Assembly (NCBI RefSeq): GCF_029714325.1
Contig: NZ_CP121666.1
Span: 4,154,001 to 4,218,000, forward strand
DNA: 64,000 nt
Direction: 5' to 3'
DNA from: Bradyrhizobium sp. CB1717
GTDB lineage: Bacteria; Pseudomonadota; Alphaproteobacteria; Rhizobiales; Xanthobacteraceae
Shown: piece after piece, positions 8,324-32,131 of the stretch
Layout: each line of letters begins with the position of its first letter
Position numbering within the stretch: position 1 is the first letter of the stretch
Made by a program: the position numbers and the translations under genes
Notes under the pieces: model-generated
What the model was told of the DNA's origin: nothing
Seen by the model: only the letters and a program-made list of their open reading frames with translations
The model's database searches: none

Positions 8324-8326
8324 TGG

Positions 8327-13260: not shown

Positions 13261-13308
13261 CTGAAATCTCCGTGCAGGATCGCGTCCCGCCGTCAAATTG
13301 GCAACCCT

Positions 13309-16665: not shown

Positions 16666-17244
16666 CTATTTTCTCGCCAGATGCTCGGTGGCGAGCGCGC
16701 CCATCCTCGCCACGTAGTCCTGCACGGCGGCAGCGTCGCTGCCATCCGGTGCCCAGTCGGGAAATTCTGTGCGGGCCGGATCGAACGGGCCGGCGGTGGT
16801 TTCGTGGAACACCAGCCATTCCGAGGTGATCAGGATCGAGTGGAAGACCTTTTCCGGCATGCGGTAGTAGCAGCGTTTGCCCTGGCCGTAGGGCGCCATC
16901 TCGAGCACATCGCGAATGCGGCCGTCGTCCTCGAAGATCACGACCTGCGCGGTGCCCTCGATCACGTGAAACGATTCAGGTTTGCCAAGATGCTTGTGGG
17001 GCCGGACATAGGCCTCGCGGTGATGCACGATCAGCATCTCGTGCAGGCCGGAGGAGGGATCGGGATGCGTGCAGAGGCGGCTGCGCAGCCGCGGGTTGCC
17101 GGCGGCGATGCGCTTCAGCTCGCCGATCGTGGCATCGTCCGCGGTGACGATGGCGTCGTCGGAATAGTAGACTTCCGGGTTCTGCGCACGGAGCGAAGTC
17201 GGCGTGCGCGAACGCGCCGTCTCATTCGAAGAAGATGAACCCAT
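16666..17244 (-). CDS. WbuC family cupin protein
   Basis: A ~192-residue cupin-fold protein with the metal-ligand motif RPHKHLGKPESFHVIEG at about residues 85-101 and a second HS/HE position near 140-150 (FHSILITSEWLVFHE). WbuC cupins occur in O-antigen clusters and are thought to act as sugar-modifying enzymes, possibly isomerases. Start ATG 17244 overlaps the next gene by 23 bases; ATG 17271 is alternative with a 50-base overlap. Confidence 0.85.
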   Translation of the reverse strand: MGSSSSNETARSRTPTSLRAQNPEVYYSDDAIVTADDATIGELKRIAAGNPRLRSRLCTHPDPSSGLHEMLIVHHREAYVRPHKHLGKPESFHVIEGTAQVVIFEDDGRIRDVLEMAPYGQGKRCYYRMPEKVFHSILITSEWLVFHETTAGPFDPARTEFPDWAPDGSDAAAVQDYVARMGALATEHLARK

Positions 17245-17887
17245 GGTCGCCCCGATAGCCGCATTTGTCATAGATCCAGGCCCATGTTTGCGGGCCGTGG
17301 AAGCTCAGGCAGGTGAGCTGCCAGTAGAGGAGGTTCGCCTTCTCGCGCTCGTTGCGGAACGATTCCACCATCAGGTATTTCGCGGTGCCGCGTCCGACCC
17401 GCTCGATCTCGCTCACCGCGCGGAAGACGTCCTCGAGCGGAAGGTTGTGCAGCACGCCGAGCGACACCACGAGATCGAAGCTGTGGTCGGAGTAGGGGAG
17501 CTCGACGGCGCTGCCGACCTTCAACTGCGGCCGCACCTCCTCCTTGGCGTTGGCGATGCCGTAGGCGGAGATGTCGATGCCGGCGATGGTGAGATCAGGG
17601 ACGAGCTGGCTGAACTCATAGAGCAGGTAGCCCTTGCCGCAGCCGACATCGAGCACGCTCATGCCGGGCTTGATGCCATAGCGGTCGATCAGGGTCTGGG
17701 CGAGCGGACGCCACCGTCCGTCATAGCGATAACCGCCATAGCCGTAGCGCCGGTCGCCGTCCCAGTAGTCGCGTCCCCACTGCCGTGCAACCGTCGCCGA
17801 TTCCGCCTTGTCATGCTCGACCACGCGCTGAACGTAGTTCCGCTTGGTCGACGCGTGCATCGGCTGGAGCAGGTTGACCTCGGCCAT
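17222..17887 (-). CDS. class I SAM-dependent methyltransferase
   Basis: A 221-residue methyltransferase: VLDVGCGKGYLLYEF (motif I, residues ~78-92), GIDIS (motif II), a DLVVSLGVLHNL segment and a C-terminal strand region. The N-terminus (DYWDGDRRYGYGGYRYDGRWRP) is an aromatic-rich lid typical of methyltransferases in carbohydrate clusters. Start ATG 17887. Possibly O-methylates a sugar; substrate unknown. Confidence 0.85.
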   Translation of the reverse strand: MAEVNLLQPMHASTKRNYVQRVVEHDKAESATVARQWGRDYWDGDRRYGYGGYRYDGRWRPLAQTLIDRYGIKPGMSVLDVGCGKGYLLYEFSQLVPDLTIAGIDISAYGIANAKEEVRPQLKVGSAVELPYSDHSFDLVVSLGVLHNLPLEDVFRAVSEIERVGRGTAKYLMVESFRNEREKANLLYWQLTCLSFHGPQTWAWIYDKCGYRGDHGFIFFE

Positions 17888-17912: not shown

Positions 17913-18305
17913 TCACAGGATGGTCGCGAATTTGTTGACGAGCAGGATGTCCTCGACCGCCTGGATGTCCTTCGGCGACGAGAGCGTGATCTCCTCCACG
18001 GCCGCGTGCAGATCGCAGCCCTCGCGCAGCACGCGGTCGTAGATCTCCCGTCGCCGTGCCTCGTCGGGCGGCAACATGAAGATGCTGTAGAGGATCAGGC
18101 CATTCAGGCGGGGCAACTCGTCGAGGATGTCCTCGAGCACCATGTAGCTGCCGGGCATGATGTGCTCGACGGCGCTGAGCAGATACTGCAGGTTCTTGCG
18201 CCGCGCGTAGTCGCGGATGACGATGTTCTGGACGTGCTGCGGGGAGCGGCTGCCGTTCAGCGGCCGCGCCCCGATGTAGCCGCGATGGCCGGCTCGCTCA
18301 GCCAT
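17913..18305 (-). CDS. sporadic carbohydrate cluster protein, LIC12192 family
   Basis: A 130-residue protein that matches the LIC12192 (sporadic carbohydrate cluster) family: RGYIGARPLNGSRSPQHVQN, then IRDYARRKNLQYLLSAVEH, MPGSYMVLEDILDELP and FMLPPD. The family is named from Leptospira and appears sporadically in carbohydrate clusters; its reaction is unknown. It overlaps the 2OG-Fe(II) oxygenase gene by 8 bases, and the two families frequently occur together. Confidence 0.85.
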   Translation of the reverse strand: MAERAGHRGYIGARPLNGSRSPQHVQNIVIRDYARRKNLQYLLSAVEHIMPGSYMVLEDILDELPRLNGLILYSIFMLPPDEARRREIYDRVLREGCDLHAAVEEITLSSPKDIQAVEDILLVNKFATIL

Positions 18306-19104
18306 GGAAGCCTCCCGGCAGCTTGTATTGCATGCCGACCCGCGTCGCCGGGCGCAGCAGGATCGGCTCGAAGAACTCGCCGAAGCGCTTGTCCGCGTAG
18401 GGCGACATGATGCTCTTGAACCGGCAGTTCATGCTCCAGCGCGTGCCCGGCTCTTCGTTGACGCGATTGCCGTGCATCAGGGTCTGGTTGAACAGCATCA
18501 CGTGACCGTAGGGAATCTCGATGAAGGTCGCGTGCGGCTTGATCGTCTTGTACAGTTCCTCGGCGCTGCGCAGGCTTGCCATCCGATCCTGCATGTCGCC
18601 GTTCAGCGACGGCGGCAGCAGATACATCGCCTTGGTGCGGTGGACGTCCACCAGCGGCACCCACACCACGACCTCGAACGGCGAGTCGCCCGACCAGACG
18701 TCGGAATGGGTGGCGAGCAGGGAGGAATCGTCGCCGGGCATCTGGATGCTGAGATTGACGCGGCGCTGCATGCAGAGCTCGTTGCCGACGATGGTTTCGA
18801 TCGTCGAGCGTGCCAGGCGGAAATAGGTCGGGCGGAACCAGGGCTCGGCGTTGAGGCCGTTGAAGACGTGCAGCCGCAGGCCGTTGAGATCGTCGACGCT
18901 CACGCGCGTATGGATGCCGTCGAGCATCGCATAGGGATCGTTGCTGTGCGGCAGCTTCAGAAAGTCGGCGGCGAGTTCAGCGGCGCGCCGCTGGATCCGG
19001 TCGAGCCCGGCACGGTCGTCGGCCGGCGTGGTGACGAAACCGTTGTCGATGAAGCGCTGCGCCAGCGCCTGCTCATCGGCCTGGAGGAAGTCCGTATCCG
19101 TCAT
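18298..19104 (-). CDS. sporadic carbohydrate cluster 2OG-Fe(II) oxygenase
   Basis: A 268-residue protein. The HSDVWSGDSPFEVVVWVPL stretch (~H133, D135) gives the Fe(II)-binding HxD, and LMHGNRVNEEPGTRWSMNCRF (~H220, R232) gives the distal His and the 2-oxoglutarate-binding Arg. This is the family paired with LIC12192 in carbohydrate clusters. Expected chemistry is hydroxylation, or a desaturation/ring-type oxidation, of a sugar. Start ATG 19104 gives a 4-base ATGA overlap with the DegT gene upstream. Confidence 0.85.
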   Translation of the reverse strand: MTDTDFLQADEQALAQRFIDNGFVTTPADDRAGLDRIQRRAAELAADFLKLPHSNDPYAMLDGIHTRVSVDDLNGLRLHVFNGLNAEPWFRPTYFRLARSTIETIVGNELCMQRRVNLSIQMPGDDSSLLATHSDVWSGDSPFEVVVWVPLVDVHRTKAMYLLPPSLNGDMQDRMASLRSAEELYKTIKPHATFIEIPYGHVMLFNQTLMHGNRVNEEPGTRWSMNCRFKSIMSPYADKRFGEFFEPILLRPATRVGMQYKLPGGFHG

Positions 19105-20219
19105 GCGAAGTACTCCCGCGCGGTCGCGCAGATATAGCTGATATCGGCGGCCGAGAGGAACTGGTTGATGGGGAGCGTGAGGATCTGGTTCGCCTGCCGC
19201 TCGGTGACCGGAAACGCTCCGCGGCCGTGACCCAGATGCGCTGCGGCCGGCTGGAGGTGGATCGGGACCGGATAGTGGATCGCGGTCTCGATGCCCTTGT
19301 CGGCAAGATATTTCTGGAAATCGTTGCGACGGTCGGTCTGCACGACGAAGGTGTGGAAGGTGTTGAACTCGATGTTGCGGCAGGGCGGAATGAACAGCGG
19401 CAGCCCTGCGAGCTCGGCGCGGTATTGCGCGGCGTTGCGGCGGCGGCGCTCGATCACCGAGGGCAAGTGGCGCAGGCGAATGCGCAGCACGTCGGCCTGC
19501 AGCGTGTCGAGCCGCGACACGAGGCCCCATTCCTGGACGTCGCTGCGGTTGATCAGGCCGTGATTGCGCAGGCGGCGAATGCGCGCGGCCATCTCTGCGT
19601 CGGCGGTGACGAGGAAGCCGGCATCGCCTGCGGCATTGAGATTCTTCAGCGGATGCGCCGAGAAGCAGCCGAACGTTCCGATCGTGCCGCTCATGCGCCC
19701 GTCATAGGTCGAGCCCACGGCCTGCGCGCTGTCCTCGATCACGGCGAGAGCGTGCTTGCTCGCGAGCGCCATCAGCGGGTTCATGTCGGCCATGCGCCCG
19801 GTCAGGTGTACCGGCATGATCGCCTTGGTCCGCGGCGTGACGGCGGCCTCGACGGCGGCGGGATCGATGTTCTGGTCCGGCAGCACGTCCGCAAACACCG
19901 GCGTCGCGCCGACCGCGATGATCGCGGCCGTCGATGCCACGAACGAATTCGGCGGGGTGATTACCTCGTCGCCGGGGCCGATGTCGAGCGCGCGCATGGC
20001 GAGGATCAGCGCATCGGTGCCGGAATTCAGCGTCACCACATGCGGCGAGCCGAGATAGGAGGAGAGCTCCTCCTCGAGCTTTCCGACCGCCGCGCCGCCG
20101 ATGAAATCGCCGCGGGAGAACACGCCCTCGACCGCCTGCATGATCTCGGCGCGCTCTTCCTCGAACTGCGCGGGAAGATTGACGTAACCGATGCGCCGGC
20201 GGCCGGTGTCAGCGTCCAT
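19101..20219 (-). CDS. DegT/DnrJ/EryC1/StrS aminotransferase (or dehydratase)
   Basis: A 372-residue PLP enzyme of the sugar aminotransferase family: NSGTDALILAMRAL (~66), the aspartate in VIEDSAQA (~163), and the PLP lysine K192 in SAHPLKNLNA. Lysine is present, so it is a transaminase rather than a ColD-type lysine-less dehydratase. Normally it transfers an amino group from Glu to a keto nucleotide sugar. Its start overlaps the next gene by 11 bases, and it is one of two adjacent DegT paralogues. Confidence 0.9.
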   Translation of the reverse strand: MDADTGRRRIGYVNLPAQFEEERAEIMQAVEGVFSRGDFIGGAAVGKLEEELSSYLGSPHVVTLNSGTDALILAMRALDIGPGDEVITPPNSFVASTAAIIAVGATPVFADVLPDQNIDPAAVEAAVTPRTKAIMPVHLTGRMADMNPLMALASKHALAVIEDSAQAVGSTYDGRMSGTIGTFGCFSAHPLKNLNAAGDAGFLVTADAEMAARIRRLRNHGLINRSDVQEWGLVSRLDTLQADVLRIRLRHLPSVIERRRRNAAQYRAELAGLPLFIPPCRNIEFNTFHTFVVQTDRRNDFQKYLADKGIETAIHYPVPIHLQPAAAHLGHGRGAFPVTERQANQILTLPINQFLSAADISYICATAREYFA

Positions 20220-21315
20220 GGCAGAACTTCCGGACGGTCTCGATGACGCGGTCCTGCTGGGCGCGCGTCAGGTGCTGATCGACGGGGAAGCTGATGACTT
20301 CCTTGGCATGGCGGTCGGTGACCGGGAACGTGCCCGGCGCGTAACCGAGATGCTTGAGGCCCTCCTGCTGATACAGCGGGATCGGATAGTGGATCTTGGC
20401 CTCGATGCCGTTGTCCAGGCAGTACTGGTAGAGCTCGTCGCGGCGTTCGGCGAACACCATGTAGAGATGATAGACGTGCTTCACGTTGGGACGGCGCGGC
20501 GGAACGCGCAGGCCCGGCAGGCCGGCAAGGCCCGCATCGTAATAGGCCGCGTTCTCGATCCGGCGGCGCGTGATCTCGCTGGTCTGGCCGATCAGCCAGT
20601 TGCCGACCACGGCCTGCAAGGAATCGAGCCGTGAATTGCAGCCGAGGATCGCGATCTCGTCGCGGTTCTTCATGCCGTGGTTGCGGATCAGGCGGAGCTT
20701 CTCGTTCATGCCGTCGTCATTGGTGACGACGACACCGGCATCGCCCCAGACGTTGAGGTTCTTGAGCGGATGCAGGGAGAAGCCGGCCGCGATGCCGTGA
20801 GTGCCGGAACGCTTGCCGGCAAACTCGGACAGAATGCCCTGGCAGGCATCCTCGACCACGGGGAGGTTGTGGCGCTGGGCGATCGCCATCAGCTTGCCCA
20901 TGTCGGTGACCTCGCCGGTCAACTGCACCGGCATGATCGCCTTGGTCTTCTTGGTGATGGCGGCCTCGACCTGGTCGACATTCATGCAGAAGGAGTCGTC
21001 GCAGTCGACCAGCACGGGCGTAGCCCCGGTCTCGGCGATGGCGCCGACCGTGGCGATGAAGGTGTTGGCGGCGGTGATGACCTCGTCGCCATGGCCGATG
21101 CCGAGCGCCTTGAGCGGCAGCTTGAGCGCATCGGTGCCTGATCCCACGCCAATGGCGTGACGCACGCCGATCAGCTCGGCAAAGCGCTTCTCGAATTCGG
21201 CGACGGGCTTGCCAAGGGTGAAATCACCGGTCGCCACCAGTCGGCCGATCTCGGCGAGGATCGGTGCGGGGTCGGAGAATTGCTCGAGCAGATAGGAATA
21301 TCGAACGTCGTACAT
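20209..21315 (-). CDS. DegT/DnrJ/EryC1/StrS aminotransferase, second copy
   Basis: A 368-residue PLP enzyme of the same family as its neighbour: GSGTDALKLPLKALGI, VVEDACQG and the lysine K185 in LHPLKNLNV. The start is ATG 21315; the frame is open further upstream, but that extension would run through the transketolase gene. Divergence between the two DegT proteins suggests different nucleotide-sugar substrates or different positions. Confidence 0.9.
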   Translation of the reverse strand: MYDVRYSYLLEQFSDPAPILAEIGRLVATGDFTLGKPVAEFEKRFAELIGVRHAIGVGSGTDALKLPLKALGIGHGDEVITAANTFIATVGAIAETGATPVLVDCDDSFCMNVDQVEAAITKKTKAIMPVQLTGEVTDMGKLMAIAQRHNLPVVEDACQGILSEFAGKRSGTHGIAAGFSLHPLKNLNVWGDAGVVVTNDDGMNEKLRLIRNHGMKNRDEIAILGCNSRLDSLQAVVGNWLIGQTSEITRRRIENAAYYDAGLAGLPGLRVPPRRPNVKHVYHLYMVFAERRDELYQYCLDNGIEAKIHYPIPLYQQEGLKHLGYAPGTFPVTDRHAKEVISFPVDQHLTRAQQDRVIETVRKFCHGR

Positions 21316-21323
21316 GTGACCCG

Positions 21324-22283
21324 TCAGGTGGAATGGAGTTGAGGAGAGGAGGTGCGCGACGCCGCGAGCGCATGCTCGATCGAGGTCGCAATGGCGTTGG
21401 CGGAGAGCCCGTGCTTCTTCAGCAGCGAGTCCTGCGAGCCGTAATTGTGCATGAAGCGATCCGGCAGCGACAGCCGCAGCATGGCGGGCAGGCCGGATCC
21501 GAGCTTGTCGATCAGCGTCTCGGCGACCGCGCTGCCGAGGCCGCCGGAGGGGACGTGCTCCTCGAGCGTCACCAGCAGGCGTGTGGCGCGCACGGCCTGC
21601 AGCAGCGCCTCGGTGTCGAGCGGCTTCACGGTGTGCATGTGCAGGATACCGCAGCGAACGCCTTGCGCGGCCAGCAGGTCGGCCGCGGCGAGGGCGCGCT
21701 GGAGCATGATGCCGGTGGTCACCATGAGGACGTCGCCGGGCGGCCGCATCAGGATGGCCTTGCCGATCTCGAAGCCGTGCTCGGCCTTGGAGACGACGGC
21801 GTCGCCGCCCTTGCCGAGCCGGATGTAGATCGGGCCCTTCCAGTCCAGCGTCTGCTCCATCATGCGCGCCGCCTCGTCGGCGTCGCACGGGCAGATCACC
21901 GTCATGTTCGGCAGCGCCCGCATGATGGCGATGTCCTCGATCGCCTGGTGGGTGGGGCCGAGTGGCGCATAGACGAGGCCGCCGCCGTTGGCGATCAGCC
22001 GCACCGGCAGATTGTGCAGGCAGAGATCGACCGCGACCTGCTCGTAGCAGCGCCGCGTCAGGAAGGTCGCGATGGTGTTGACGTAGGGCACGAAGCCCTC
22101 CATCGCGAGGCCGGCCGACATGCCGATGATGTGCGCTTCCGAGATGCCCTCGATCAGGTGGCGCTTGGGAAACTCCTTGCTCATCGCGCGCAGCGTGCCG
22201 GCGCCGGGATCGGAGCCGATGTAAAGCACACGCTCGTCGCGCGCGGCGAGCTTGTGGACCATGTTCATCGCGGTGTTGCGCAT
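21324..22283 (-). CDS. transketolase, C-terminal (pyrimidine-binding) subunit
   Basis: A ~319-residue protein covering the Pyr-binding and C-terminal domains of transketolase. EGISEAHIIGMSAGLAMEG contains the conserved glutamate that activates ThDP, and the later IRLGKGG and VTLEEHVPSGGLG segments match the Transket_pyr and Transketolase_C domains. Start ATG 22283, 10 bases after the upstream stop; TTG 22313 is an alternative. Split transketolases occur in some archaea and in secondary metabolism and sugar clusters. With the gene at 22294 it should form one transketolase. Confidence 0.9.
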   Translation of the reverse strand: MRNTAMNMVHKLAARDERVLYIGSDPGAGTLRAMSKEFPKRHLIEGISEAHIIGMSAGLAMEGFVPYVNTIATFLTRRCYEQVAVDLCLHNLPVRLIANGGGLVYAPLGPTHQAIEDIAIMRALPNMTVICPCDADEAARMMEQTLDWKGPIYIRLGKGGDAVVSKAEHGFEIGKAILMRPPGDVLMVTTGIMLQRALAAADLLAAQGVRCGILHMHTVKPLDTEALLQAVRATRLLVTLEEHVPSGGLGSAVAETLIDKLGSGLPAMLRLSLPDRFMHNYGSQDSLLKKHGLSANAIATSIEHALAASRTSSPQLHST

Positions 22284-22293
22284 GGGGAGCCGA

Positions 22294-23142
22294 TCAAAAA
22301 TCGCCGACAGCAACGCGAATGGCGTCGAGCTCGCTGTCGGTCAGCTTGTTCTTGTGATGCCAATCGGCGTTGGATTCCGCAGCCGGAAGTCCCTTGCCCT
22401 TGACGGTATGGCAGATGACGGCGGTGGGTTTGCCTGCAACGGCCGGGACCTGCTTCAGCACGGTGCGCAGGGCGCCGACGTCGTGGCCGTTGACCTCCTG
22501 CACGGCGAAGCCGAAGCTGCGCCACTTGTCCGCAAGCGGCTCCAGCGGCAGCACGTAGTCGGTGGGCCCGTAGCTCTGGAGCTTGTTGTAGTCGATCAGC
22601 GCGACGAGGTTGTCGAGCCCGTGCTTGGCCGCGCCCATCGCAGCTTCCCACACCGATCCCTCGTTGATCTCGCCGTCGCCGAGCAGGACGAAGGTCCGGT
22701 AGCTGCGCTCGCGCATGCGTGCGGCAAGCGCAAGGCCGACGCCGATCGAGAGGCCATGCCCGAGTGCGCCGGTCGATGCCTCGACCCCCGGCACCATGCC
22801 GTATTCTGGATGTCCGCCCAGGATGCTGTCGGGGCCGCAGAAGCCGTCGAGCTCCGACAGCGGGAAGAAGCCGCGATCGGCCAGCAGCGCATAGAGCGCC
22901 AGGCAACCGTGTCCCTTGCTGAGGATGGCGCGGTCGCGATCGGGATCGCGCGGATTCTTCGGATCGATCCGCAACACGTCGTCGTAGAGCACGCGGACCA
23001 TCTCGATCAGCGACAGGGCAGGTCCGACATGTCCGCGTCCCGCGGAACGGACAGAACCGAGCACCAGGCGGCGCAAATAAAGGCTGCGCTCGTCCAGGGT
23101 GCAGGTGAGGGCGGCTTCAGCGTGGGGTGAGATCTGGATCAC
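22294..23142 (-). CDS. transketolase, N-terminal (ThDP-binding) subunit
   Basis: A ~282-residue protein with the ThDP diphosphate and Mg-binding motif GDGEINEGSVWEAAMGAAKHGL (GDGx~25-N pattern), SKGHGCLALYALLA and GSLGHGLS-like (TGALGHGLSIG). This is the first half of transketolase. Start is GTG 23142 (TTG 23193 possible); it overlaps the kinase gene by 26 bases. It transfers two-carbon units between ketose and aldose phosphates. Confidence 0.9.
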   Translation of the reverse strand: MIQISPHAEAALTCTLDERSLYLRRLVLGSVRSAGRGHVGPALSLIEMVRVLYDDVLRIDPKNPRDPDRDRAILSKGHGCLALYALLADRGFFPLSELDGFCGPDSILGGHPEYGMVPGVEASTGALGHGLSIGVGLALAARMRERSYRTFVLLGDGEINEGSVWEAAMGAAKHGLDNLVALIDYNKLQSYGPTDYVLPLEPLADKWRSFGFAVQEVNGHDVGALRTVLKQVPAVAGKPTAVICHTVKGKGLPAAESNADWHHKNKLTDSELDAIRVAVGDF

Positions 23143-24154
23143 GTTGGCAAATCGTTTGGTGGAGCCGGCGCGCTTTGTCGAGCTGACCAGCAAGGCGGAC
23201 CGTCAGATCGCCACCTTGCGCGGCCAATGCGCGTCGGGAGCGGCTTTCCGGCAAATAAGCATTCAGGACAATCAGGCACCAGATCGCCCCGAACACAGGA
23301 TACAGTACGTCACGACGGATCGCAAACGCGTCATCCCTAGCCGCGAAAGCTTGCGTGAGGCGTTCGGTCAACCGATTTGCTTTGGCTTCGGGCAGATCGC
23401 TGCCGGGGTGAAGCGCGGTGTCGGACACGAGCTTGACCGGATCGTCCCAGCCGAAATACTCGAAGTCGATGAATCGCAGCCGGCCGTCTTCGCCGCGCAA
23501 TGCATTGTGCAGCCCGAAATCGGACGGGCTCAACGCGCGATGCGCGGGCGCAAGATCGGCTGCGGGATCCCGGCCGAGTTCCGTATAGCGCAGGCGTAGC
23601 TTTCGGATCGCGATGGACGTGCTGGGCACCAGGCTGCCGTCGATGAATGCGCGCAGGTCCGGATGATCGTCCGAGGCCCGCCTCAGTCCGTCCAGGCGCT
23701 GCGCGTACTGGGCGATCGCCTCCTCGGGCGAGAAGATGCTGGCCGAGGCGTCGCGCAAATTCTGCGCGCCGTCGGCGTCGCGCAGTTTCTGCAGCTCGAT
23801 CAGGAAATCGGCCAGCTGATCGGCATCGCCGTCCTGGGGACGCAGCACCGCCGCCTCGCCGTCGAACCATTGATACAGCGCGCAGAACGCATCAGCATCC
23901 TTCGCGACCGGGTGCGGTGTCGACATGATGCCGTGGCGGGACAGGAACGACAGCGCGTCATATTCCTGTCCCAGGCGATCGCGCCCGTCGGACGGATAAT
24001 GCTTGAGGGCGAGGGGCGGGCCCTTTGCCATCTCGAGCCGAAACACCCGGTTGTTGCCGCCGGACCGCGCCGGCTGGGCGGCCGCGACCGGGGCGCCCGC
24101 CAGGCGGCTGCCGAGCGCCATCGCATCCGCTGCGCTGATGTCAGGCTCGCTCAT
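23117..24154 (-). CDS. aminoglycoside-phosphotransferase-like sugar kinase
   Basis: A 345-residue protein with a kinase-like fold: a glycine-rich N-lobe (SGGNNRVFRLE), then LSPSDFGLHNAL, corresponding to the catalytic Asp (D in SDFGLHN) and the Asn, and the metal-binding FIDFEYFGWDDP. Phosphotransferases of this group phosphorylate sugars, choline or aminoglycosides. It overlaps the HAD gene by 4 bases (ATGA), and context suggests a sugar phosphorylation step in the carbohydrate pathway. Confidence 0.8.
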   Translation of the reverse strand: MSEPDISAADAMALGSRLAGAPVAAAQPARSGGNNRVFRLEMAKGPPLALKHYPSDGRDRLGQEYDALSFLSRHGIMSTPHPVAKDADAFCALYQWFDGEAAVLRPQDGDADQLADFLIELQKLRDADGAQNLRDASASIFSPEEAIAQYAQRLDGLRRASDDHPDLRAFIDGSLVPSTSIAIRKLRLRYTELGRDPAADLAPAHRALSPSDFGLHNALRGEDGRLRFIDFEYFGWDDPVKLVSDTALHPGSDLPEAKANRLTERLTQAFAARDDAFAIRRDVLYPVFGAIWCLIVLNAYLPESRSRRALAAQGGDLTVRLAGQLDKARRLHQTICQRDPDLTPR

Positions 24155-24771
24155 GCCGCAAACACTTCGTTACGGATGCCGGTCCACGTCGCGATCGGCT
24201 TGCAATGTCCGGGGTGCGGGGACTGCGAACGCGTGAACAGGATCGATCGCGTGCCCTTCGGGAAATGCGGTTGCTCGAAGACCTCGACGAGATCGTCGAT
24301 GAAGATGTCGAGCTTCAGGCTCACGAGCCTGTCGACCTTGGCGGCCATCGTGTCCTCGAAGTAGACATCGCCGGCAGCCACCGCCGCATCCGCGGCGTCG
24401 ATCAGGCCGGCTCCGCGCAGCCAGCCGCGCGCGGCTTCGCGCAAATCGGTACGGTCCGGATCCTGATGACCGAATCGGGTCTTGTGGCTGACGACGTACA
24501 CCTTCGCGCCGGCCTGTCTGCACGCCGCCAGGAATTCCCGCACGCCCGGATAGATTTCGGCGCCGCCAATGCCCTTGCCGTAGACGAAGCCTTGCAGGCC
24601 TTGCCAGGCGAGCTCGCCGCCGGTGCGGGATCTCAAGTAATCCCGCACATCGGTCTTCAGCCCCTCCCAGCCCTCCGGCACCAGGTCGCGCTGACGCGCC
24701 GCGGCGGCAAAGACCTTGTCGTAGCAGATGATCGTGTTGTCGAAATCGATGCCGATCCGCACGCCGCTCAC
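24151..24771 (-). CDS. HAD-like hydrolase
   Basis: A 206-residue HAD protein: motif I GIDFDNTIICYDK (D9 and D11, nucleophile and acid), a serine in the VVSHKTRFG segment as motif II, a following lysine region, and the acidic FIDDLVEVF as motif IV. A phosphatase for a sugar bisphosphate is plausible, comparable to GmhB in heptose synthesis. Overlaps the flanking genes by 4 bases on each side. Confidence 0.8.
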   Translation of the reverse strand: MSGVRIGIDFDNTIICYDKVFAAAARQRDLVPEGWEGLKTDVRDYLRSRTGGELAWQGLQGFVYGKGIGGAEIYPGVREFLAACRQAGAKVYVVSHKTRFGHQDPDRTDLREAARGWLRGAGLIDAADAAVAAGDVYFEDTMAAKVDRLVSLKLDIFIDDLVEVFEQPHFPKGTRSILFTRSQSPHPGHCKPIATWTGIRNEVFAA

Positions 24772-25769
24772 TTCAGGCTGATATTCTGCATCATCTTGAT
24801 GTTGAAGTACCGGGGGTCGTTGAGCGAGTTCGGCAGACGGCCGGTCTTGAAGGCGTCCACCAGACCCGACACGGCCTGCTCGATCGTGTGGGTCGGCGCA
24901 AATCCGAGCTCGCGGCGGATCTTTTCCGAAGAGACGTGATACGAGCGCAGATCGTCGGTCGGCTCGACCGCGATGTCGACGTTATTGCCGACCACCGACT
25001 TGACGATGTCGGCGATCTTCATCAGCGAGTGGTTCTCGTAGCCGATATTGTAGGTCTTGCCGTCGATCTTCGCGTCGTCCTGCTGGAGCAGGAACAGATA
25101 GGCCGCCGACATGTCCTGGATATGCAGGTTGGGCCGGCGCTGCGTCCCGCCGAACACGCGGATGCGGCCGGTGTTGACCGCAAGGTTGGTCAGGATGTTG
25201 ACGACGACGTCGAGCCGTTGCCGCGGTGCGTAGCCGCAGACGGTGGCTGGACGCACGGTGCAGGTGACGAACCCGGATGCGGCTTCGTCGGCGAGGTCGG
25301 TCTCGCACATCGCCTTGAACTTGGAATAGTCGGTGAGCGGCTCGCAGGACAGCTCCTCCGTCACCTCGGCTTCGTCCTTGATGCCGTAGACGCTGGAGGA
25401 GGACGCGTAGATGAAGCGCTTGATGCCGGCCTTCTTCGCCGCGCGCACCATCGGCCGGAAGCAGTCGTAGTTGATGGACTTGCCGAGCGTCGGATCGAGC
25501 TCGAACGAGGGGTCGTTGGAAATGCAGGCGAGGTGGATCACCGCATTGTTGCCGCGCAGCGCCTCGTTGATCGCGGCCTCGTCGCGGATGTCGCCCTTGA
25601 TCAGGCGCAAATTGGGGTTGTCACGGACGGCGTCGAAGACGTTTTCACCGTACATGAACAGGTCGAGCACCGTGACCTTGTGGCCTGCCGCGAGCAACTG
25701 GGGAACCAGCACGCTGCCGACATAGCCGGCGCCACCGGTGACCATCACGTTCCATTTCTGATCAATCAC
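24768..25769 (-). CDS. NAD-dependent epimerase/dehydratase
   Basis: A ~333-residue extended SDR: TGGAGYVGSVLVPQLL (NAD-binding GxxGxxG), then SSSSVYG and the catalytic tyrosine in YSKFKAMCE (YxxxK). The GTG at 25769 is chosen because GGAG lies seven bases upstream; the reading frame is open further. Probably epimerises or dehydrates a nucleotide sugar. It overlaps the HAD gene by 4 bases, hence operonic. Confidence 0.9.
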   Translation of the reverse strand: MIDQKWNVMVTGGAGYVGSVLVPQLLAAGHKVTVLDLFMYGENVFDAVRDNPNLRLIKGDIRDEAAINEALRGNNAVIHLACISNDPSFELDPTLGKSINYDCFRPMVRAAKKAGIKRFIYASSSSVYGIKDEAEVTEELSCEPLTDYSKFKAMCETDLADEAASGFVTCTVRPATVCGYAPRQRLDVVVNILTNLAVNTGRIRVFGGTQRRPNLHIQDMSAAYLFLLQQDDAKIDGKTYNIGYENHSLMKIADIVKSVVGNNVDIAVEPTDDLRSYHVSSEKIRRELGFAPTHTIEQAVSGLVDAFKTGRLPNSLNDPRYFNIKMMQNISLK

Positions 25770-25795
25770 TGTCGTTCTCCAGAATCTTCTTTGCG

Positions 25796-27361
25796 CTACT
25801 TCAACAACGCGGTCACGAACTTGACCAGCGGCGCCTTTTCGACCGAGCTGCGGTGGCCGACGATACCGACCTTGATCGCGCCTGCCGCATTGCCGATGAA
25901 CGCGACGTCCTCGATATTGCCGCCGGCGGCAACCAGTGGTGCCGTGATCGTCAGGAAGGCGTCGCCGGCGCCGACGGTGTCGACGACGGTCTTGGTGAAA
26001 GCGGGCACACGCGCGACGCCGGTCTTCGACGAGAACGGGTAGCAGCCGAAGGAGCCGTGCGTGATGATCATGTTGTCGCAATCGATCTTGGCGTGCAGGC
26101 CGTTCTCGATCACGGAGGCGATGTCGTTGAACTTGTCGGTGGCGGCCAGCCGCGCTTCCGGTGCGTCGATGCAGATGTAGTCGGCCCGCGGATATTTGGT
26201 GACCAGATTGTAGCCGTGATTTCCGCTGTTGCTCTGGGCGTTGACGGCCAGGAACTTGGAATTCGCGATCAGCGTGTCAATCGTGCTGGACGCGATCATG
26301 CCGTGGCCGAAATCGGTGACGATGACCACGTCCGCGCCGCGCACGCGCTCCGCGGTGACCCGGTCGATCTCCTGCCGCTGGGTCTCGCTGACCGGCGTGT
26401 CGTTCATGGTGTAGACCTCGAACAACTTGTGCAGGTAGCCGAGCTCGACGTAGCGGAGCTTGCGGGTGGTGGGGCGGTTTTCGACGCGGATCGGCGTCAG
26501 CTTGACGTTCTGTCGGATATGCGCGCGAAGGAATTCTTCGGGATAGTCGTCGCCGCCGAGCGTCGTGACGATCTCGACCGACTTGCAGAAGCTCGCGACG
26601 TGGTTCGCCGCGGCGATCACGCCGCCTGCGAATTGCTCCCGGTTCTTGAACAGGGTCGCGACGATGTTCTCCTTCGAGGCCTTTCCGAGCGCGGTGACGT
26701 ACTGGTACTCGTCGATGATCGTATCTCCGACCAGCACGACGTGCATGTCCTGGATCTTGTCGATCAGCTTCAGCAGGCGTTCGGCGCCGCCGCCTTCGCG
26801 CACCTTCTGGAGGTAGTCGCGCAGGGGAGGGTCGTAGATGTCGAAATAGCGGTTCAGCAGCGACGACGAGCTGAAGGTCACGTCGCGCGTGAAGACGATG
26901 CGCCCGCCATGGCGCTCGACGGCCTCGCGCTCGGTCGCGATCTTGCCGGTGACGTCATCCTCGGGATTTTCGTAGTCCGAGCCCTTCACGTAGATGTCGG
27001 GGCGGACGGTGTCGAGGATCGGCTCGGCGCTGGAGGTCCGGTTGATGGCGACCCAGTCGACCGTGCCGAGTGCCGCCAGCATCTCGGCGCGCATGTTCTC
27101 GGGAAAGATCGGCCGTCCCGGGCCCTTGTTGACGAAACGGTCGGCGGTGATGGTCACGATGACCACGTCGGCCTCGTTGCGCGCTGCCAGGATGTGCCGG
27201 ACGTGACCGAGATGAACCAGATCGAACACGCCGTGGCACAGCGCCACGGTGCGGCCCTCGGCCTGTGCGGCGCGCGCGATCGCTCCCAGCTCCTCGAGCG
27301 TCTTGATCTTCTCGTGCGGTGCCGGATGGACCGCCGCCTTGTCTGTCGCAGAATTACCCAT
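25796..27361 (-). CDS. cytidylyltransferase-PfkB kinase fusion (HldE-like, inverted order)
   Basis: A 521-residue bifunctional protein. Residues ~35-175 are a nucleotidyltransferase: CHGVFDLVHLGHVRH, with the HxGH motif at 50-53 (HLGH), and later a KGSDY segment. Residues ~200-515 are a PfkB/ribokinase-type sugar kinase: GAGDAF at 464-469, with the catalytic Asp at 467. Classical HldE, which makes ADP-D-beta-D-heptose precursors, has kinase first and nucleotidyltransferase second; here the order is reversed. The enzyme could phosphorylate C1 of a sugar phosphate and then activate it with a nucleotide. Confidence 0.9.
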   Translation of the reverse strand: MGNSATDKAAVHPAPHEKIKTLEELGAIARAAQAEGRTVALCHGVFDLVHLGHVRHILAARNEADVVIVTITADRFVNKGPGRPIFPENMRAEMLAALGTVDWVAINRTSSAEPILDTVRPDIYVKGSDYENPEDDVTGKIATEREAVERHGGRIVFTRDVTFSSSSLLNRYFDIYDPPLRDYLQKVREGGGAERLLKLIDKIQDMHVVLVGDTIIDEYQYVTALGKASKENIVATLFKNREQFAGGVIAAANHVASFCKSVEIVTTLGGDDYPEEFLRAHIRQNVKLTPIRVENRPTTRKLRYVELGYLHKLFEVYTMNDTPVSETQRQEIDRVTAERVRGADVVIVTDFGHGMIASSTIDTLIANSKFLAVNAQSNSGNHGYNLVTKYPRADYICIDAPEARLAATDKFNDIASVIENGLHAKIDCDNMIITHGSFGCYPFSSKTGVARVPAFTKTVVDTVGAGDAFLTITAPLVAAGGNIEDVAFIGNAAGAIKVGIVGHRSSVEKAPLVKFVTALLK

Positions 27362-27445
27362 GTGAATTACCCAAAAGCACCGGCCGGCCTCGGCCGGCTG
27401 GCCCGAAATTGATCGACTCGCGGCGACAATACGTAGCGAACCTGT

Positions 27446-28474
27446 TCAGTAGCTTGCCTTCTGCGGCGCACCGGACGCCGCATCCTTGTCGTCGCCAAGA
27501 TATTTGAACCAGTCCTTGGTGGCGTCGGCAATCTTGTCCACCGTCCACAGGGGAGCGTCCTTGTACTGGTCCATGGACTTCAGCATCGTCGCGACGCCGT
27601 CCTCGAATTTCACCTTCGGCGTCCATTTCAGGATCCGCTTGATCTTGGTGATGTCGGCGTAGGTGCAGTCGGGCTCGCCGGGGCGCCTGGGAATGTGGAC
27701 CTTGTCGCCGCCGAGCAGTTCAACCAGCCGGTTGACGCTGTAGGTGTTGTCCGAGCCGACGTTGAAAATCTCGTGCGAGACGTCGGAGCGTGCGGCCGTG
27801 ACGAAAGCGTCGGCGACGTCGCTGACGAAGGTGAAATCGCGGGTCTGCTCGCCGTCGCCGACCACTGTGAAGGGCTTGCCGGCAAGCTTCTGCGCCATGA
27901 ACACGCCGAATACGGCGCCATAGGTCCCCGTGGTGCGATGGCGCGGCCCGAACACGTTGAACAGACGGAGCGCGACCGCTGGAAGCTTGTAGACCTGGCA
28001 CCAGTGCATGACGCACTGCTCGCCGAGATTCTTGGTGAGAGCGTAGGGATACATCGGCCGGATCTCGGCGCTCTCCGGCGTCGGATAGACGTCGGGGATG
28101 CCGTAGCAGGAGGACGACGCCGCATACACGAAGCGGCTGACGCCGGCCTGCCGCGCAGCCTCGAGAACGTTGACCGTGCCGTCGACGTTGGCGCGGTGAT
28201 ACGGGATCGGCGATTCGATCGAGGGAACGATGTCGGCGAGTGCCGCGAGGTGGAACACCCAGTCGATACCGTTGAAATACGGGCTGATCGATTCGCGGTC
28301 AGTGACGTCGGCCCGGACGATCTTCAGCCGGCTCGAACCGGCGTGCGACGACAGATTTTCGGAACGTCCGATGACGAAATTGTCGAGCGCAATCACCTCA
28401 TGGCCGTCATCGAGAAGGCGATCAACGAGGTGACTGCCGATGAAGCCGGCGCCGCCAGTGACGATGCATTTCAT
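27446..28474 (-). CDS. NAD-dependent epimerase/dehydratase (UDP-glucose 4-epimerase-like)
   Basis: A ~342-residue extended SDR with VTGGAGFIGSHLVDRLL, the serine/tyrosine region AASSSCYGIPDV and the YxxxK motif in YPYALTKNLGE. The FNVFGPRH stretch and the substrate-binding RRPGEPD are GalE-like. Start ATG 28474. It is the first gene of the long minus-strand string and diverges from the SIS gene at 28611. Confidence 0.9.
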   Translation of the reverse strand: MKCIVTGGAGFIGSHLVDRLLDDGHEVIALDNFVIGRSENLSSHAGSSRLKIVRADVTDRESISPYFNGIDWVFHLAALADIVPSIESPIPYHRANVDGTVNVLEAARQAGVSRFVYAASSSCYGIPDVYPTPESAEIRPMYPYALTKNLGEQCVMHWCQVYKLPAVALRLFNVFGPRHRTTGTYGAVFGVFMAQKLAGKPFTVVGDGEQTRDFTFVSDVADAFVTAARSDVSHEIFNVGSDNTYSVNRLVELLGGDKVHIPRRPGEPDCTYADITKIKRILKWTPKVKFEDGVATMLKSMDQYKDAPLWTVDKIADATKDWFKYLGDDKDAASGAPQKASY

Positions 28475-28610
28475 AGGAACATCCGTAGCGCGAATGCCCT
28501 GCGGGCGTCGCCAATGTTGAGTGAAACCCTGACGCCGACTAACAGCCGGTCGCAATTTTTGCAAGTATTATACCTTTGCAATCCCTGGTAATAGCCGGTA
28601 TCAGGGCGTC

Positions 28611-29222
28611 ATGTTGCAGTCGAGCCGCCAGCCCATGCCCGCCGAGACTCTTGATCCCGATCACAAGGCCTTCCTCGTCGATTACATGGGGCGCCTGCAT
28701 CGCGCGACGGCGATCGACGACGGTGTTTTCGCCAGCATCTCCGCCACCCGCGCGGCCTGGTTGCGTGCGCGCGAGCAGGGCGGTCGCGTCATCTTCATCG
28801 GCAATGGCGGCTCGGCCGGCATTGCTTCGCATCTGGCGATCGATCTGGCAAAGAACGCGTCGGTGCCAGCGCTCTGCTTCAGCGATGCCAGCATGATGTC
28901 GTGCCTTGCCAACGACTACGGTTTCGAGGACTGGATCGCGCACGCCGTGCGGCTGAGCGCCCGCGCCGGCGACTGCCTCGTCGCGATCAGTTCGTCGGGG
29001 CGCTCGAAGAACATCCTCAATGCGGTTGCGCAGGCGCGGACGATGAAGCTCGGCGTGATCACGCTGTCGGGCATGAATGTGGACAATCCGCTGCGCAATC
29101 TCGGCGACGTCAATTTCTGGGTGGACAGCCGCAGCTACAACATTGTCGAGACCACGCACCAGTTCTGGATGATGGCCGCGATCGACCTCGTCATCGGTCG
29201 CGCGGAATACCCGGCATCCTGA
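28611..29222 (+). CDS. SIS-domain, GmhA-like phosphoheptose isomerase homologue
   Basis: A 203-residue SIS-domain protein: FIGNGGSAGIASHLAIDL, then ISSSGRSKNI and a C-terminal helix ending VETTHQFWMMAAIDLV. This follows the layout of GmhA, which converts sedoheptulose-7-P to D-glycero-D-manno-heptose-7-P. One position where E. coli GmhA has a catalytic Glu (after SA..HF) looks like Asp here, while the C-terminal His is kept; alignment is by eye. ATG 28611 follows AGGG with a suitable gap. First gene of the plus-strand trio. Confidence 0.75.
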   Translation: MLQSSRQPMPAETLDPDHKAFLVDYMGRLHRATAIDDGVFASISATRAAWLRAREQGGRVIFIGNGGSAGIASHLAIDLAKNASVPALCFSDASMMSCLANDYGFEDWIAHAVRLSARAGDCLVAISSSGRSKNILNAVAQARTMKLGVITLSGMNVDNPLRNLGDVNFWVDSRSYNIVETTHQFWMMAAIDLVIGRAEYPAS

Positions 29223-29234
29223 GGCGGGCATCGG

Positions 29235-30257
29235 ATGCAGGCGCGGTTCAAACAGGCAGCCCTGTTCTCGGTGAAGCTGCTGCTGTCGATCGCGGTGCTG
29301 GTCTACATCGCGCGCGGTCTCGACCTGCAGCAATTGCGCACCCATCTCGTCTCGATCAATCCCTTGCTGTTTATCCTCGCGCTGGCGCTGATCTTCGTTC
29401 AGACCTTCGCACTGAATGGCCGGTGGGAGCTGATCATGCGCGCGCTGGGCGTGTCGCTGGATTGGCTCGCTGGCTGGCGGATCCTGATGATCAGCCTCTG
29501 GTTCAACCAGGTGCTGCCGTCGTCGGTGGGCGGCGACGCGGTTCGGATGTGGCTGCTGCGCCAGCGCGGCGTGCAGTGGCCGGAGGCGGTCAAGGGCGTT
29601 GCGGCGGACCGTTTCACGGCGTTGATCGGGTTGATCGTGCTGATGGTGGCCGGCTTGCCGGTCCTGATGTCGCGGGTGTCGAATCAGGCTGCGATCCTGG
29701 CGATCGGCGGGCTGACGCTGGCGGGCGTCGCCGGTACCGTGGTCCTGTTGACGCTCGATCGCCTGCCGAAGCGCCTCATCGCGCTTCCCGCGATCGCAAG
29801 CTTCGTCCGGTTCGGAACGCTTGTCAGATTTCTTCTCCTGCGATCCGAGCACCGCGGTTTGCTGTTCGGGTCGGCGCTCTTCATTCATCTCGTGACGGCA
29901 GCGGCGTGCTATGCCTTGGCGCGCGGCGTAGGAGCTCAGCTCTCGGTGGTGGACGCTGCCATCCTGATTCCGCCGGTGGTCCTGCTGACGGCGGTTCCGA
30001 TCTCGATCAGCGGCTGGGGCGTTCGCGAGGGCGCAATGGTTGCCTGTCTCGGCTTGGCTGGCGTTCCTTCCGAGGAAGCGCTGTCGGTTTCGCTCCTGCT
30101 GGGGGCGGTCAGCGTGATCGTCGGTCTGGCGGGCGGGGTGATCTGGCTGGCAAGTCCGGAGCGGGGCTCTTATTCAGCGGACAAGGCCGCGCAGGCTGCC
30201 GAAGAACCGCCGGACTACGGGCTGGCGAAGGCCAGGGAGGTCTCGAGCCACCCTTGA
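29235..30257 (+). CDS. LPG_synthase_TM (UPF0104) flippase-like membrane protein, second copy
   Basis: A 340-residue polytopic protein; LPSSVGGDAVRMWLLR, ISISGWGVREG and the surrounding TM order match the UPF0104 family and its paralogue at 15627. It begins 12 bases after the SIS gene. Two copies on opposite sides and strands of the same cluster suggest duplicated or divided roles, perhaps in moving a lipid-linked intermediate. Confidence 0.8.
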   Translation: MQARFKQAALFSVKLLLSIAVLVYIARGLDLQQLRTHLVSINPLLFILALALIFVQTFALNGRWELIMRALGVSLDWLAGWRILMISLWFNQVLPSSVGGDAVRMWLLRQRGVQWPEAVKGVAADRFTALIGLIVLMVAGLPVLMSRVSNQAAILAIGGLTLAGVAGTVVLLTLDRLPKRLIALPAIASFVRFGTLVRFLLLRSEHRGLLFGSALFIHLVTAAACYALARGVGAQLSVVDAAILIPPVVLLTAVPISISGWGVREGAMVACLGLAGVPSEEALSVSLLLGAVSVIVGLAGGVIWLASPERGSYSADKAAQAAEEPPDYGLAKAREVSSHP

Positions 30258-30318
30258 CTGTCTTGAACCATTACCGTCGATCTGATCTTCACAGGGTGGG
30301 GTTGTCCCGCTCGCTCGC

Positions 30319-31611: not shown

Positions 31612-31939
31612 CGGGGCCGGCGGGGGCTGAAGGCCTCCCCGGGATGGCGCCTTGCGGGCGGTGGATAAGTCCTTGATCCACATGGCCTCTGCACGGCGGT
31701 CCGGGGGAGGGGGCTTGCCCCCACAAGCCCTCTCTATCTTGACCTTTGGCCCCATCCGCAGTAGATACCCCGCACTCGCAGCCGGCCCGTTAGACGCGGA
31801 TCTCCGGCGCGGCTTTAAATCCCCGAACAATCGAGCCCGGTTCCCGGCTCATCCTTCGAGACAGAGGGCTGGGCCAACGGCGGCTGTTCGGATCCCTGAA
31901 ATTCATGTGCGTCTGTCGACGGACGCTGGACCTCAAACG
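31612..31939 (+). other. intergenic region upstream of secE
   Basis: No gene seen. It holds two hairpins after the methyltransferase stop (GTGGAT/ATCCAC, 31661-31681, and GGGGGC/GCCCCC, 31709-31722) and the promoter candidate 31739-31767. The rest up to secE is likely 5' leader. Confidence 0.6.
31739..31767 (+). promoter_or_regulatory. sigma70-like promoter for secE-nusG
   Basis: TTGACC (31739-31744) and TAGATA (31762-31767) are separated by exactly 17 bases, close to consensus. It should start a transcript with a leader of about 165 bases before secE and drive secE-nusG, perhaps through rplKA. Confidence 0.6.
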
Positions 31940-32131
31940 ATGGCAGTCAGCCCGTTCAAGTTCTTGCAGGAAGTGCGCTCGGAGACCGCCAAGGTCACCT
32001 GGCCGACCCGCCGCGAGACCACAATCACCACCATCATGGTGTTCGTCATGGTCGCGGTGGCCTCGGTGTTCTTCTTCGCCGCCGACCAGATCATCCGCGT
32101 CCTCATCACCTTCCTTCTGGGCATCCACTGA
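31940..32131 (+). CDS. secE: protein translocase subunit SecE
   Basis: A 63-residue single-TM protein (short alphaproteobacterial form): basic N-terminal ...KVTWPTRRETTIT, the conserved W-P-T-R region, and one TM segment at about 33-58. Forms SecYEG. Its TGA shares an A with the nusG ATG (TGATG), so the two are coupled. Confidence 0.95.
   Translation: MAVSPFKFLQEVRSETAKVTWPTRRETTITTIMVFVMVAVASVFFFAADQIIRVLITFLLGIH

Follow-up and report, generated by a model that had tools for sequence, protein, structure and literature searches.

A split-transketolase cassette of Bradyrhizobium sp. CB1717, related to the bradyrhizose O-antigen cluster, and its probable role in building a higher-carbon surface sugar

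We describe a cassette of sugar-modifying genes built around a transketolase in two subunits, TKT-N and TKT-C, in a 64,000-nucleotide stretch of the genome of Bradyrhizobium sp. CB1717 (positions 4,154,001–4,218,000 of a 9.23-Mb single-contig genome; hereafter the window). The cassette is real and conserved. It is a variant of a cluster kind represented so far by a single mutant study and by two protein family names without a function. Judged from its sequence, it is probably (we would put the chance at about two in three) of the same kind as the cluster for bradyrhizose O-antigen, and would build an unusual nucleotide-activated sugar for a surface polysaccharide, one with more than six carbons. 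This reading starts from features that are directly observed: the gene content of the cassette, its conservation, its kinship with the cluster type of strain ORS285, and residue changes in the transketolase.

The genes for a nucleotidyltransferase-PfkB fusion (NT-PfkB), TKT-N, TKT-C, two DegT aminotransferases, an APH-fold kinase, a HAD phosphatase, and two extended short-chain dehydrogenases/reductases (SDRs) form one minus-strand pack at 19101–28474 (Table 1), with neighbors overlapping by 4–26 bases or separated by 8–84 bases at the starts chosen. A preliminary description made from the DNA alone had named these proteins, including the fusion as an inverted HldE-like one, together with a divergent SIS protein; a Pfam scan of 30 window proteins, none lying past 32685, recovers all of them on the strands given, and the tight packing is borne out. 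The same minus-strand unit extends past 19101 to 16666 with genes for proteins of families TIGR04324 and TIGR04323, a methyltransferase (MT), and a WbuC cupin, and the spacings from the gdh-like SDR gene through to WbuC are 84, 26, −4, −4, −26, 10, 8, −11, −4, −8, 25, and −50 bases (chosen starts). A divergent plus-strand arm holds the SIS gene, a flippase-like gene, and a C-methyltransferase gene, followed by secE and nusG. All named frames pass a third-position-GC filter except the long frame of the second DegT gene (20209–21888).

In ORS285, gdh mutants lack bradyrhizose O-antigen, and the gene belongs to an eleven-gene cluster that is kept in six photosynthetic strains, at a distance from the ligase gene rfaL given as ∼44 kb and, in the text, as 40 kb (PMC4743980). 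That paper calls the genes for bradyrhizose synthesis unknown in 2016 (section 15), and the word "transketolase" is absent from its main text. Bradyrhizose is a ten-carbon, bicyclic, inositol-fused sugar with ring closures from hydroxyls 4, 5, or 9 (PMC9912281, PMC9042403), and the bradyrhizose literature text that we examined contains no biosynthetic pathway. As a probe, we ran the published ORS285 gdh primers against genus genomes and loci. Of the 146 genus genomes, two (G065 and G098) have a site for the reverse primer less one base with two mismatches or fewer. In each of the six ORS285-type loci probed (L041, L043, and L054–L057; five Bradyrhizobium, one Bosea), the primer pair encloses 381 bp, with one to five mismatches per primer (1 + 2 in L041 and 1 + 1 in L054); the fragments in the paper are of 300–400 bp (PMC4743980). 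The G065 operon (L041/L042) consists of exactly eleven genes, equal to the published count: NT-PfkB, NTP-transferase, SDR, SIS, gdh, TKT-N, TKT-C, zinc-type alcohol dehydrogenase (ADH), HAD, APH, and MT. Genomes G083 and G032 have the same eleven. The gdh contig of G065 also carries, 41 kb from that gene, a Wzy_C gene that is a candidate counterpart of rfaL.

Eight of the eleven ORS285-type genes have a homolog in the window cassette, with identities of 57% (MT), 48% (TKT-N), 44% (SDR and HAD), 41% (TKT-C), 34% (APH), 32% (SIS), and 29% (NT-PfkB), all at E 1e-14 or better. We read this as relatedness of most of the enzymes rather than orthology of the two clusters. The speculative link to bradyrhizose in the preliminary description thus gains from the homologs of eight cassette proteins, but the window is not the bradyrhizose cluster itself: ORS285 gdh primer sites are missing from it at three mismatches or fewer (the best have six to eight), and three of the eleven genes have no close counterpart, as detailed below. 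That description had also held that bradyrhizose strains without the set would speak against the link. The outcome lies in between, with G065, G098, G083, and G032 (ORS285-type by their gene cluster rather than by sugar chemistry) lacking the window-type NT-PfkB and having a diverged homologous set.

Within the genus, orthologs of the window NT-PfkB at 85%–100% identity occur in 43 of 146 genomes, its own included, so the window gene set is not a chance assembly. Four more genus genomes have a homolog at 32%, and at E 1e-80 the protein is found in five of 297 genomes of the order, all in the genus. TIGR04323 occurs in seven of 398 phylum genomes: six in the genus, CB1717 included, and G578 from another family, whose cassette has MT, TIGR04323, TIGR04324, TKT-C, TKT-N, APH, HAD, SDR, NT-PfkB, gdh-like, and SIS genes (the SIS nearer the ORS285 type, 57%) and no DegT. 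Since the G578 cassette lacks them, the two DegT genes appear to have been added in Bradyrhizobium; the pair is also absent from the window-type (W) cassettes L126, L130, and L151. Across seven Bradyrhizobium loci, protein identity over the cassette is 63%–99% (TKT-N identity to the window is 89% in L132 and 97% in L133), and the C-methyltransferase is conserved beside the cassettes, at 94%–96% in L045, L046, L047, L053, and L133 and at 82%–87% in L052 and L132. The W cassette adjoins secE-nusG in the window (28611–32685) and in L045, L046, L047, and L053; L052 has no secE or nusG match within the 5.5 kb examined. B. diversitatis CNPSo 4019 is one strain of the window type. In L053, the flippase-like gene between the SIS and C-methyltransferase genes is absent, the rest of the cassette being present.

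The ORS285 type (B) is rare in the sample, as its TKT-C is found at 89%–100% identity in only four of the 146 genus genomes (G065, G098, G083, and G032); among 41 relatives of G065, the gdh gene occurs in G065 itself alone. No genome of the 146 has B and W types together at the thresholds used, the four B genomes being absent from the list of those with a window-type NT-PfkB. A third type (T), in G131, G082, G036, and G014, has a split transketolase, an SDR (56%–57% to W), a gdh-like protein (55%–58%), NT-PfkB, and MT; neither HAD nor APH is matched there. Its one annotated locus, L048, also has genes for SIS, a transaldolase, a Gfo/Idh protein, and a UDP-glucose-dehydrogenase-like protein. 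Two of the four T genomes are photosynthetic.

The window transketolase has the PF00456, PF02779, and PF02780 domains together with Glu418 and His481, which place it in the transketolase superfamily. We use yeast transketolase numbering and residue roles, including contact of H469 and D477 with the acceptor in canonical enzymes. Each TKT-C frame was built around the top tblastn hit, with stop signs removed unchecked, TKT-N matches with a stop sign, set to X, are those of seven loci (L058, L061, L075, L092, L103, L115, and L128), and the alignment reference was the pair of full-length transketolases of the same genome (L135 and L137), both canonical at all seven TKT-C positions. At the canonical acceptor sites R359, S386, H469, D477, and R528, the window TKT-C reads R, G, G, L, and K, so that R359 alone is retained. 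The G/L/K signature is the same in ORS285-type loci, where scored, and in the T-type enzymes (L048–L051). We define as the GK group all TKT-Cs with G469 and K528. Its 58 members all retain E418, H481, and R359 and all carry, by definition, H469G and R528K; D477 is leucine in 54, and position 386 is R in 31, G in 13, K in 12, and S in two. In GK TKT-Ns, H30, H69, and H263 are retained in 57 of 57, and H103 in 47 (Q in 10). The 27 other split transketolases keep R528 in 25 cases, have S469 in 22, and keep H30, H69, H103, and H263 throughout. Catalytic and donor residues thus appear largely intact in the GK group and the acceptor site appears rebuilt with basic residues still there, which argues for an unusual, perhaps anionic, acceptor. 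Since donor residues are mostly kept and acceptor residues are changed, the enzyme probably adds two carbons to such an acceptor rather than making sedoheptulose-7-phosphate. A transketolase dedicated to a sugar cassette, as first described, is supported; the sedoheptulose-type ketose phosphate then proposed as its product is made less likely by the lost acceptor residues and by the two canonical full-length enzymes in the genome.

A quick tree of the transketolases (87 rows, midpoint root, support from the SH-like approximate likelihood-ratio test [SH-aLRT] only; L094 and L096, on short contigs, L075, L086, L088, L093, and L098, removed by a TKT-N/TKT-C length filter, and L151–L153, fetched later, are omitted) splits 61 rows (57 GK, three others, one unscored) from 26 (24 others, two unscored) with SH-aLRT 99. 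The W clade, which includes L126 and L130, and a 40-row B clade each have SH-aLRT 100, as does the T clade, which sits on a very long branch in an uncertain place. Two more split transketolases elsewhere in this genome (L141 and L142) have long branches, and by eye the cassette signature is absent from them.

A profile search of genome contigs with the TKT-N alignment gave 547 loci, and all wider-family counts concern the best 80 of these: 47 GK by TKT-C signature, 27 without it, and six unscored. The 47 GK loci contain NT-PfkB in 32, NTP-transferase in 17, SDR in 36, SIS in 24, gdh in 34, ADH in 32, HAD in 38, APH in 35, MT in 34, and DegT in 13 (the gdh and SDR families overlap, both being extended SDRs). 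For the 27 non-GK loci, the corresponding counts are 1, 1, 0, 0, 2, 2, 0, 0, 1, and 2, and for the six unscored ones 2, 1, 5, 3, 6, 0, 2, 2, 0, and 1. Among the loci listed, all eleven B-type families occur in Bosea vaviloviae SD260, Pseudolabrys sp. Root1462, Herbaspirillum sp. Sphag64, and Bradyrhizobium erythrophlei GAS478. The combination of transketolase, HAD, APH, and MT is found in records labeled Cyanobacteriota, Melainabacteria, Chloroflexota, Verrucomicrobiota, Planctomycetota, Omnitrophota, Poribacteria, Thermodesulfobacteriota, Fidelibacterota, and Minisyncoccota, all of them metagenome-assembled; mis-binning is likely in places, because the transketolases of L087 (labeled Chloroflexota) and L090 (labeled Alphaproteobacteria) are nearly identical. 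A core shared by many unrelated bacteria suggests that the cassette probably builds unusually large cell-surface sugars.

One step may be exchangeable. We took 40 GK loci: 39 with a length of 20 kb or more, L041 and L042 being counted together, and the 16-kb L151. HAD, APH, and MT lie within 11 kb in 30 of them, and these 30 divide into 20 with ADH only and 10 with TIGR04324, a 2-oxoglutarate (2OG)-Fe(II) oxygenase family, only; none has both and none neither. The other ten comprise eight with neither (four of them T-type), L058 with ADH only, and L126 with both (its ADH match being at 30%). The ten TIGR04324 loci are the seven Bradyrhizobium W-type loci, L130, L151, and L063. As only L063 lies outside the W clade on the tree, from which L151 is absent, the exclusion amounts to about two independent occurrences, and the idea that ADH and the 2OG oxygenase are two ways to one carbonyl is suggestive only.

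Several points weigh against placing the window with the bradyrhizose cluster and against the function proposed. The ORS285-type cluster was read from related genomes found by the primers, not from the ORS285, ORS278, or BTAi1 sequence, and the G065 operon was matched to the published cluster by gene count and distances, not by the paper's gene names. We know of no lipopolysaccharide structure for CB1717. At E 1e-5, tblastn finds no match to the ORS285-type NTP-transferase or zinc ADH anywhere in the window, and the ORS285-type gdh is only distantly related to the window gdh-like SDR (26%); the B-type motif is TPE...YxxxR, by eye nearer dehydratases, and that of the window protein SSC...YxxxK. 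The tie of the ORS285 cluster to bradyrhizose is through one gene, gdh, for whose mutation the authors of PMC4743980 allow a polar effect. No Wzy_C gene lies at the 40–44 kb published for the ORS285 ligase gene, the nearest match in this genome being ∼0.35 Mb from the window. The placement inside an O-antigen cluster claimed at first thus has circumstantial backing from one GT2 glycosyltransferase, C-methyltransferases, and membrane proteins among the 30 scanned proteins and is countered by the distant Wzy_C. Eight of the 47 GK loci (L062, L076, L077, L095, L097, L099, L101, and L102) have none of HAD, APH, and MT, which short contigs may explain in L062, L095, and L097. Because most of the control loci are from Bacillota, these counts do not separate co-occurrence from descent. 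Arginine or lysine replaces S386 in 43 of 58 GK TKT-Cs, a basic acceptor pocket that leaves room for a phosphorylated acceptor. Finally, 12 photosynthetic genomes divide into one B, three W, two T, and six with none at the thresholds used; photosynthesis as a marker of the cassette was rejected on these counts.

We infer the reactions, the product, and its destination in the O-antigen or elsewhere on the surface from the enzyme families. By the logic of nucleoside diphosphate (NDP)-heptose synthesis, SIS, the PfkB kinase, HAD, and the nucleotidyltransferase would make an activated sugar, into which SDRs would introduce a ketone; a further carbonyl could come from the zinc-type ADH or, in the window, from the 2OG-Fe(II) oxygenase. 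The private split transketolase would then form the key C-C bond by transferring a two-carbon ketol unit. The donor would be a ketose phosphate, and the acceptor would be not an ordinary aldose phosphate but probably a ketone of the activated sugar. The S-adenosylmethionine (SAM)-dependent methyltransferase might add one carbon or cap an oxygen, and in Bradyrhizobium the two DegT enzymes and the C-methyltransferase would decorate the product.

The heptose-type folds could also be put to use in another order, with the private transketolase first making a seven- or eight-carbon ketose phosphate that SIS, PfkB, HAD, and the nucleotidyltransferase convert to NDP-heptose or NDP-octose. GmhA/HldE/GmhB-type folds are indeed present, and the retained R359 with basic K528 and, often, R/K386 could hold a phosphate; but H469 is glycine in 58 of 58 and D477 leucine in 54 of 58 GK TKT-Cs, both presumed acceptor contacts, and the genome has two full-length enzymes with canonical residues elsewhere, so we consider this route rather improbable. 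It is very unlikely that the cluster makes ordinary heptose or 6-deoxyheptose with the transketolase only boosting the supply of sedoheptulose-7-phosphate. The SIS, NT-PfkB, and SDR proteins do resemble GmhA, HldE, and HldD at the family level, as the preliminary description had it for the first two, but all score far below the equivalog cut-offs: 86 bits against 209 for gmhA, 163 against 521 for HldE (with the order nucleotidyltransferase, then kinase), and 120 against 275 for HldD. The SIS proteins of W, B, and T types have D at the position of catalytic E65 of E. coli GmhA, and His180 is kept in W only. Moreover, the transketolases form a subfamily with a fixed signature, mostly accompanied by HAD, APH, and MT.

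A secreted or lipid-linked small molecule, aminocyclitol-like, is a less far-fetched product, albeit an unlikely one. Flippase-like genes are there, yet no near Wzy_C, and antibiotic-type clusters likewise contain genes for DegT, APH, and 2OG oxygenase proteins. GT2 and WbuC genes are, however, close by, and the ORS285-type relative of the cassette, which mutants link to O-antigen (PMC4743980), has a Wzy_C gene at a distance of ∼41 kb. That the cassette is a decaying or silent relic is scarcely credible: Its presence is patchy (43 of 146 genus genomes), but its frames are open and tightly packed, the seven Bradyrhizobium loci share 63%–99% protein identity, and the transketolase catalytic residues are kept. 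Of these readings, we prefer a cassette for a large surface sugar made with a two-carbon addition to an unusual acceptor.

A C7 + C2 + C1 route to a ten-carbon sugar fits the gene set. More tentatively, and with more doubt than confidence, we suggest a widespread pathway class for ten-carbon, possibly carbocycle-fused sugars, with its core in about ten phyla and bradyrhizose as one product. SIS, PfkB, HAD, and nucleotidyltransferase would supply NDP-heptose, an SDR would make a C4 ketone, and the split transketolase would add C2 there. The SAM methyltransferase would supply a C-methyl, at C9 of bradyrhizose in a carbon map that is our own assumption. Aldol reaction between the new C2 branch and a C7 aldehyde could close a six-membered, inositol-like carbocycle; the aldehyde would come from ADH or, interchangeably, from the 2OG-Fe(II) oxygenase acting with the LIC12192 protein. 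The window product might then be an aminated, C-methylated relative of bradyrhizose. A 13C-labeling study of bradyrhizose biosynthesis (reportedly in Org. Lett. in 2019) may already support or contradict this route.

Table 1. Features of the cassette in window coordinates
Feature	Coordinates	Strand	Basis
WbuC-family cupin metalloprotein	16666..17271	-	TIGR04366 135.8 bits, cut-off 42
SAM methyltransferase (MT), conserved cassette member	17222..17887	-	Methyltransf_11 3e-18; 57% identity to ORS285-type MT
LIC12192-family sporadic carbohydrate cluster protein, family without assigned function	17913..18305	-	TIGR04323 166 bits, cut-off 55
Sporadic carbohydrate cluster 2OG-Fe(II) oxygenase	18298..19104	-	TIGR04324 341.5 bits, cut-off 150
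DegT/DnrJ/EryC1 aminotransferase 1	19101..20219	-	Pfam E 6e-105
DegT/DnrJ/EryC1 aminotransferase 2	20209..21315	-	Pfam E 7e-103, scored on longer frame 20209-21888; start ATG 21315
TKT-C (pyrimidine-binding and C domains)	21324..22283	-	Transket_pyr 2e-31, Transketolase_C 2e-27; G469/L477/K528 acceptor signature
TKT-N, thiamine diphosphate (ThDP)-binding	22294..23142	-	Transketolase_N 1e-50; nearest solved chain is split transketolase 6yak
APH-fold kinase	23117..24154	-	PF01636 6e-10
HAD phosphatase	24151..24771	-	PF00702 (Hydrolase) 3e-5, 24.9 bits, cut-off 26.4; 44% to ORS285-type HAD
Extended SDR (cassette SDR)	24768..25769	-	Epimerase 4e-41; start GTG 25769 chosen, ATG 25745 possible
Nucleotidyltransferase-PfkB fusion	25796..27361	-	CTP_transf_like first, PfkB second; inverted relative to HldE
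Extended SDR, epimerase-like/gdh-like (SSC...YxxxK)	27446..28474	-	Epimerase 3e-62; best solved match UDP-glucose 4-epimerase
SIS-domain isomerase, GmhA-like fold	28611..29222	+	SIS_2 2e-11; 32% to ORS285-type SIS, E 9e-15
Flippase-like membrane protein (LPG_synthase_TM)	29235..30257	+	PF03706 8e-47
C-methyltransferase (Methyltransf_13/14)	30319..31611	+	PF08484 1e-43

The HAD assignment is weak by Pfam because its score falls below the cut-off; an N-terminal DFDNT motif is seen by eye. Both DegT enzymes apparently keep the pyridoxal-phosphate lysine (by eye), and the pair is probably a tandem duplication, since the two genes are 65% identical in DNA over ∼864 bases. In the 2OG-Fe(II) oxygenase, H133, D135, H211, and R222 are invariant in an alignment of nine sequences; the protein has no match among PDB sequences up to E 1. 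The structure predicted for the TIGR04323 protein has a mean predicted local distance difference test score of 50.9, too low for a structure search. No near match was found in a plasmid collection searched with 8 kb of the cluster. Elsewhere in the window, minus-strand open reading frames (ORFs) at 11008–13296 and 13309–15624 encode proteins of 762 and 771 amino acids with 13 and eight hydrophobic stretches, without Pfam or NCBIfam match, possibly a membrane glycosyltransferase or polymerase. At 7289–10742, a second C-methyltransferase (Methyltransf_13/14) is grouped with another methyltransferase and a Gfo/Idh/MocA oxidoreductase, perhaps as a second sugar-modification set. A 449-amino-acid minus-strand ORF (28539–29888), antisense to the SIS and flippase-like genes and without Pfam match, is probably a by-product of high GC.

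The results give a gene-by-gene hypothesis for bradyrhizose that includes the expected C-C-bond-forming enzyme, a residue signature that separates the cassette transketolase from full-length and other split transketolases, and a connection from an NCBI family pair without assigned function to a sugar pathway whose product is known. If the reading is true, large branched or fused sugars would be commoner on bacterial surfaces than the small number of known structures implies, and transketolases for the synthesis of tertiary alcohols would be available from the cassette.

In open-licence PubMed Central, we found no paper on "LIC12192" or "sporadic carbohydrate cluster" and, mostly from titles and abstracts, no published description of the cassette, including of a transketolase with O-antigen. 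The sporadic carbohydrate cluster of NCBIfam is represented by TIGR04323 and TIGR04324, adjacent in the window and both above the curated cut-off; unlike the bare family names, they are here tied to a transketolase cassette. A review describes transketolases, proposed for miharamycin and amipurimycin synthesis, that would attach hydroxyacetyl to a keto sugar; this makes a C2 addition of that kind plausible, though by that review still unproven, and the review counts 13 candidate split transketolases, all from Streptomycetes and none characterized in vitro (PMC12247030). Those enzymes are split, as in the window, but serve Streptomyces secondary metabolites, not surface polysaccharides. YerE (yersiniose and caryophyllose) is a ThDP enzyme that branches a surface sugar, the likeness being to the role proposed here, but it belongs to the decarboxylase family and the window protein has transketolase domains (PMC12247030). 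Among the 30 window proteins, no decarboxylase-type thiamine pyrophosphate domain is a best match, the only ThDP domains being of transketolase type. The ADP-heptose pathway (GmhA/HldE/GmhB/HldD) has SIS, PfkB, HAD, nucleotidyltransferase, and SDR folds in common with the window, whose proteins differ in their sub-equivalog scores and inverted NT-PfkB order. The closest counterparts are the ORS285-type loci (L041–L043, L054–L057, L152, and L153), which share TKT-N, TKT-C, NT-PfkB, SDR, SIS, HAD, APH, and MT with the window; in contrast to them, the window has TIGR04323 and TIGR04324, two DegT genes, and the C-methyltransferase, and adjoins secE-nusG.

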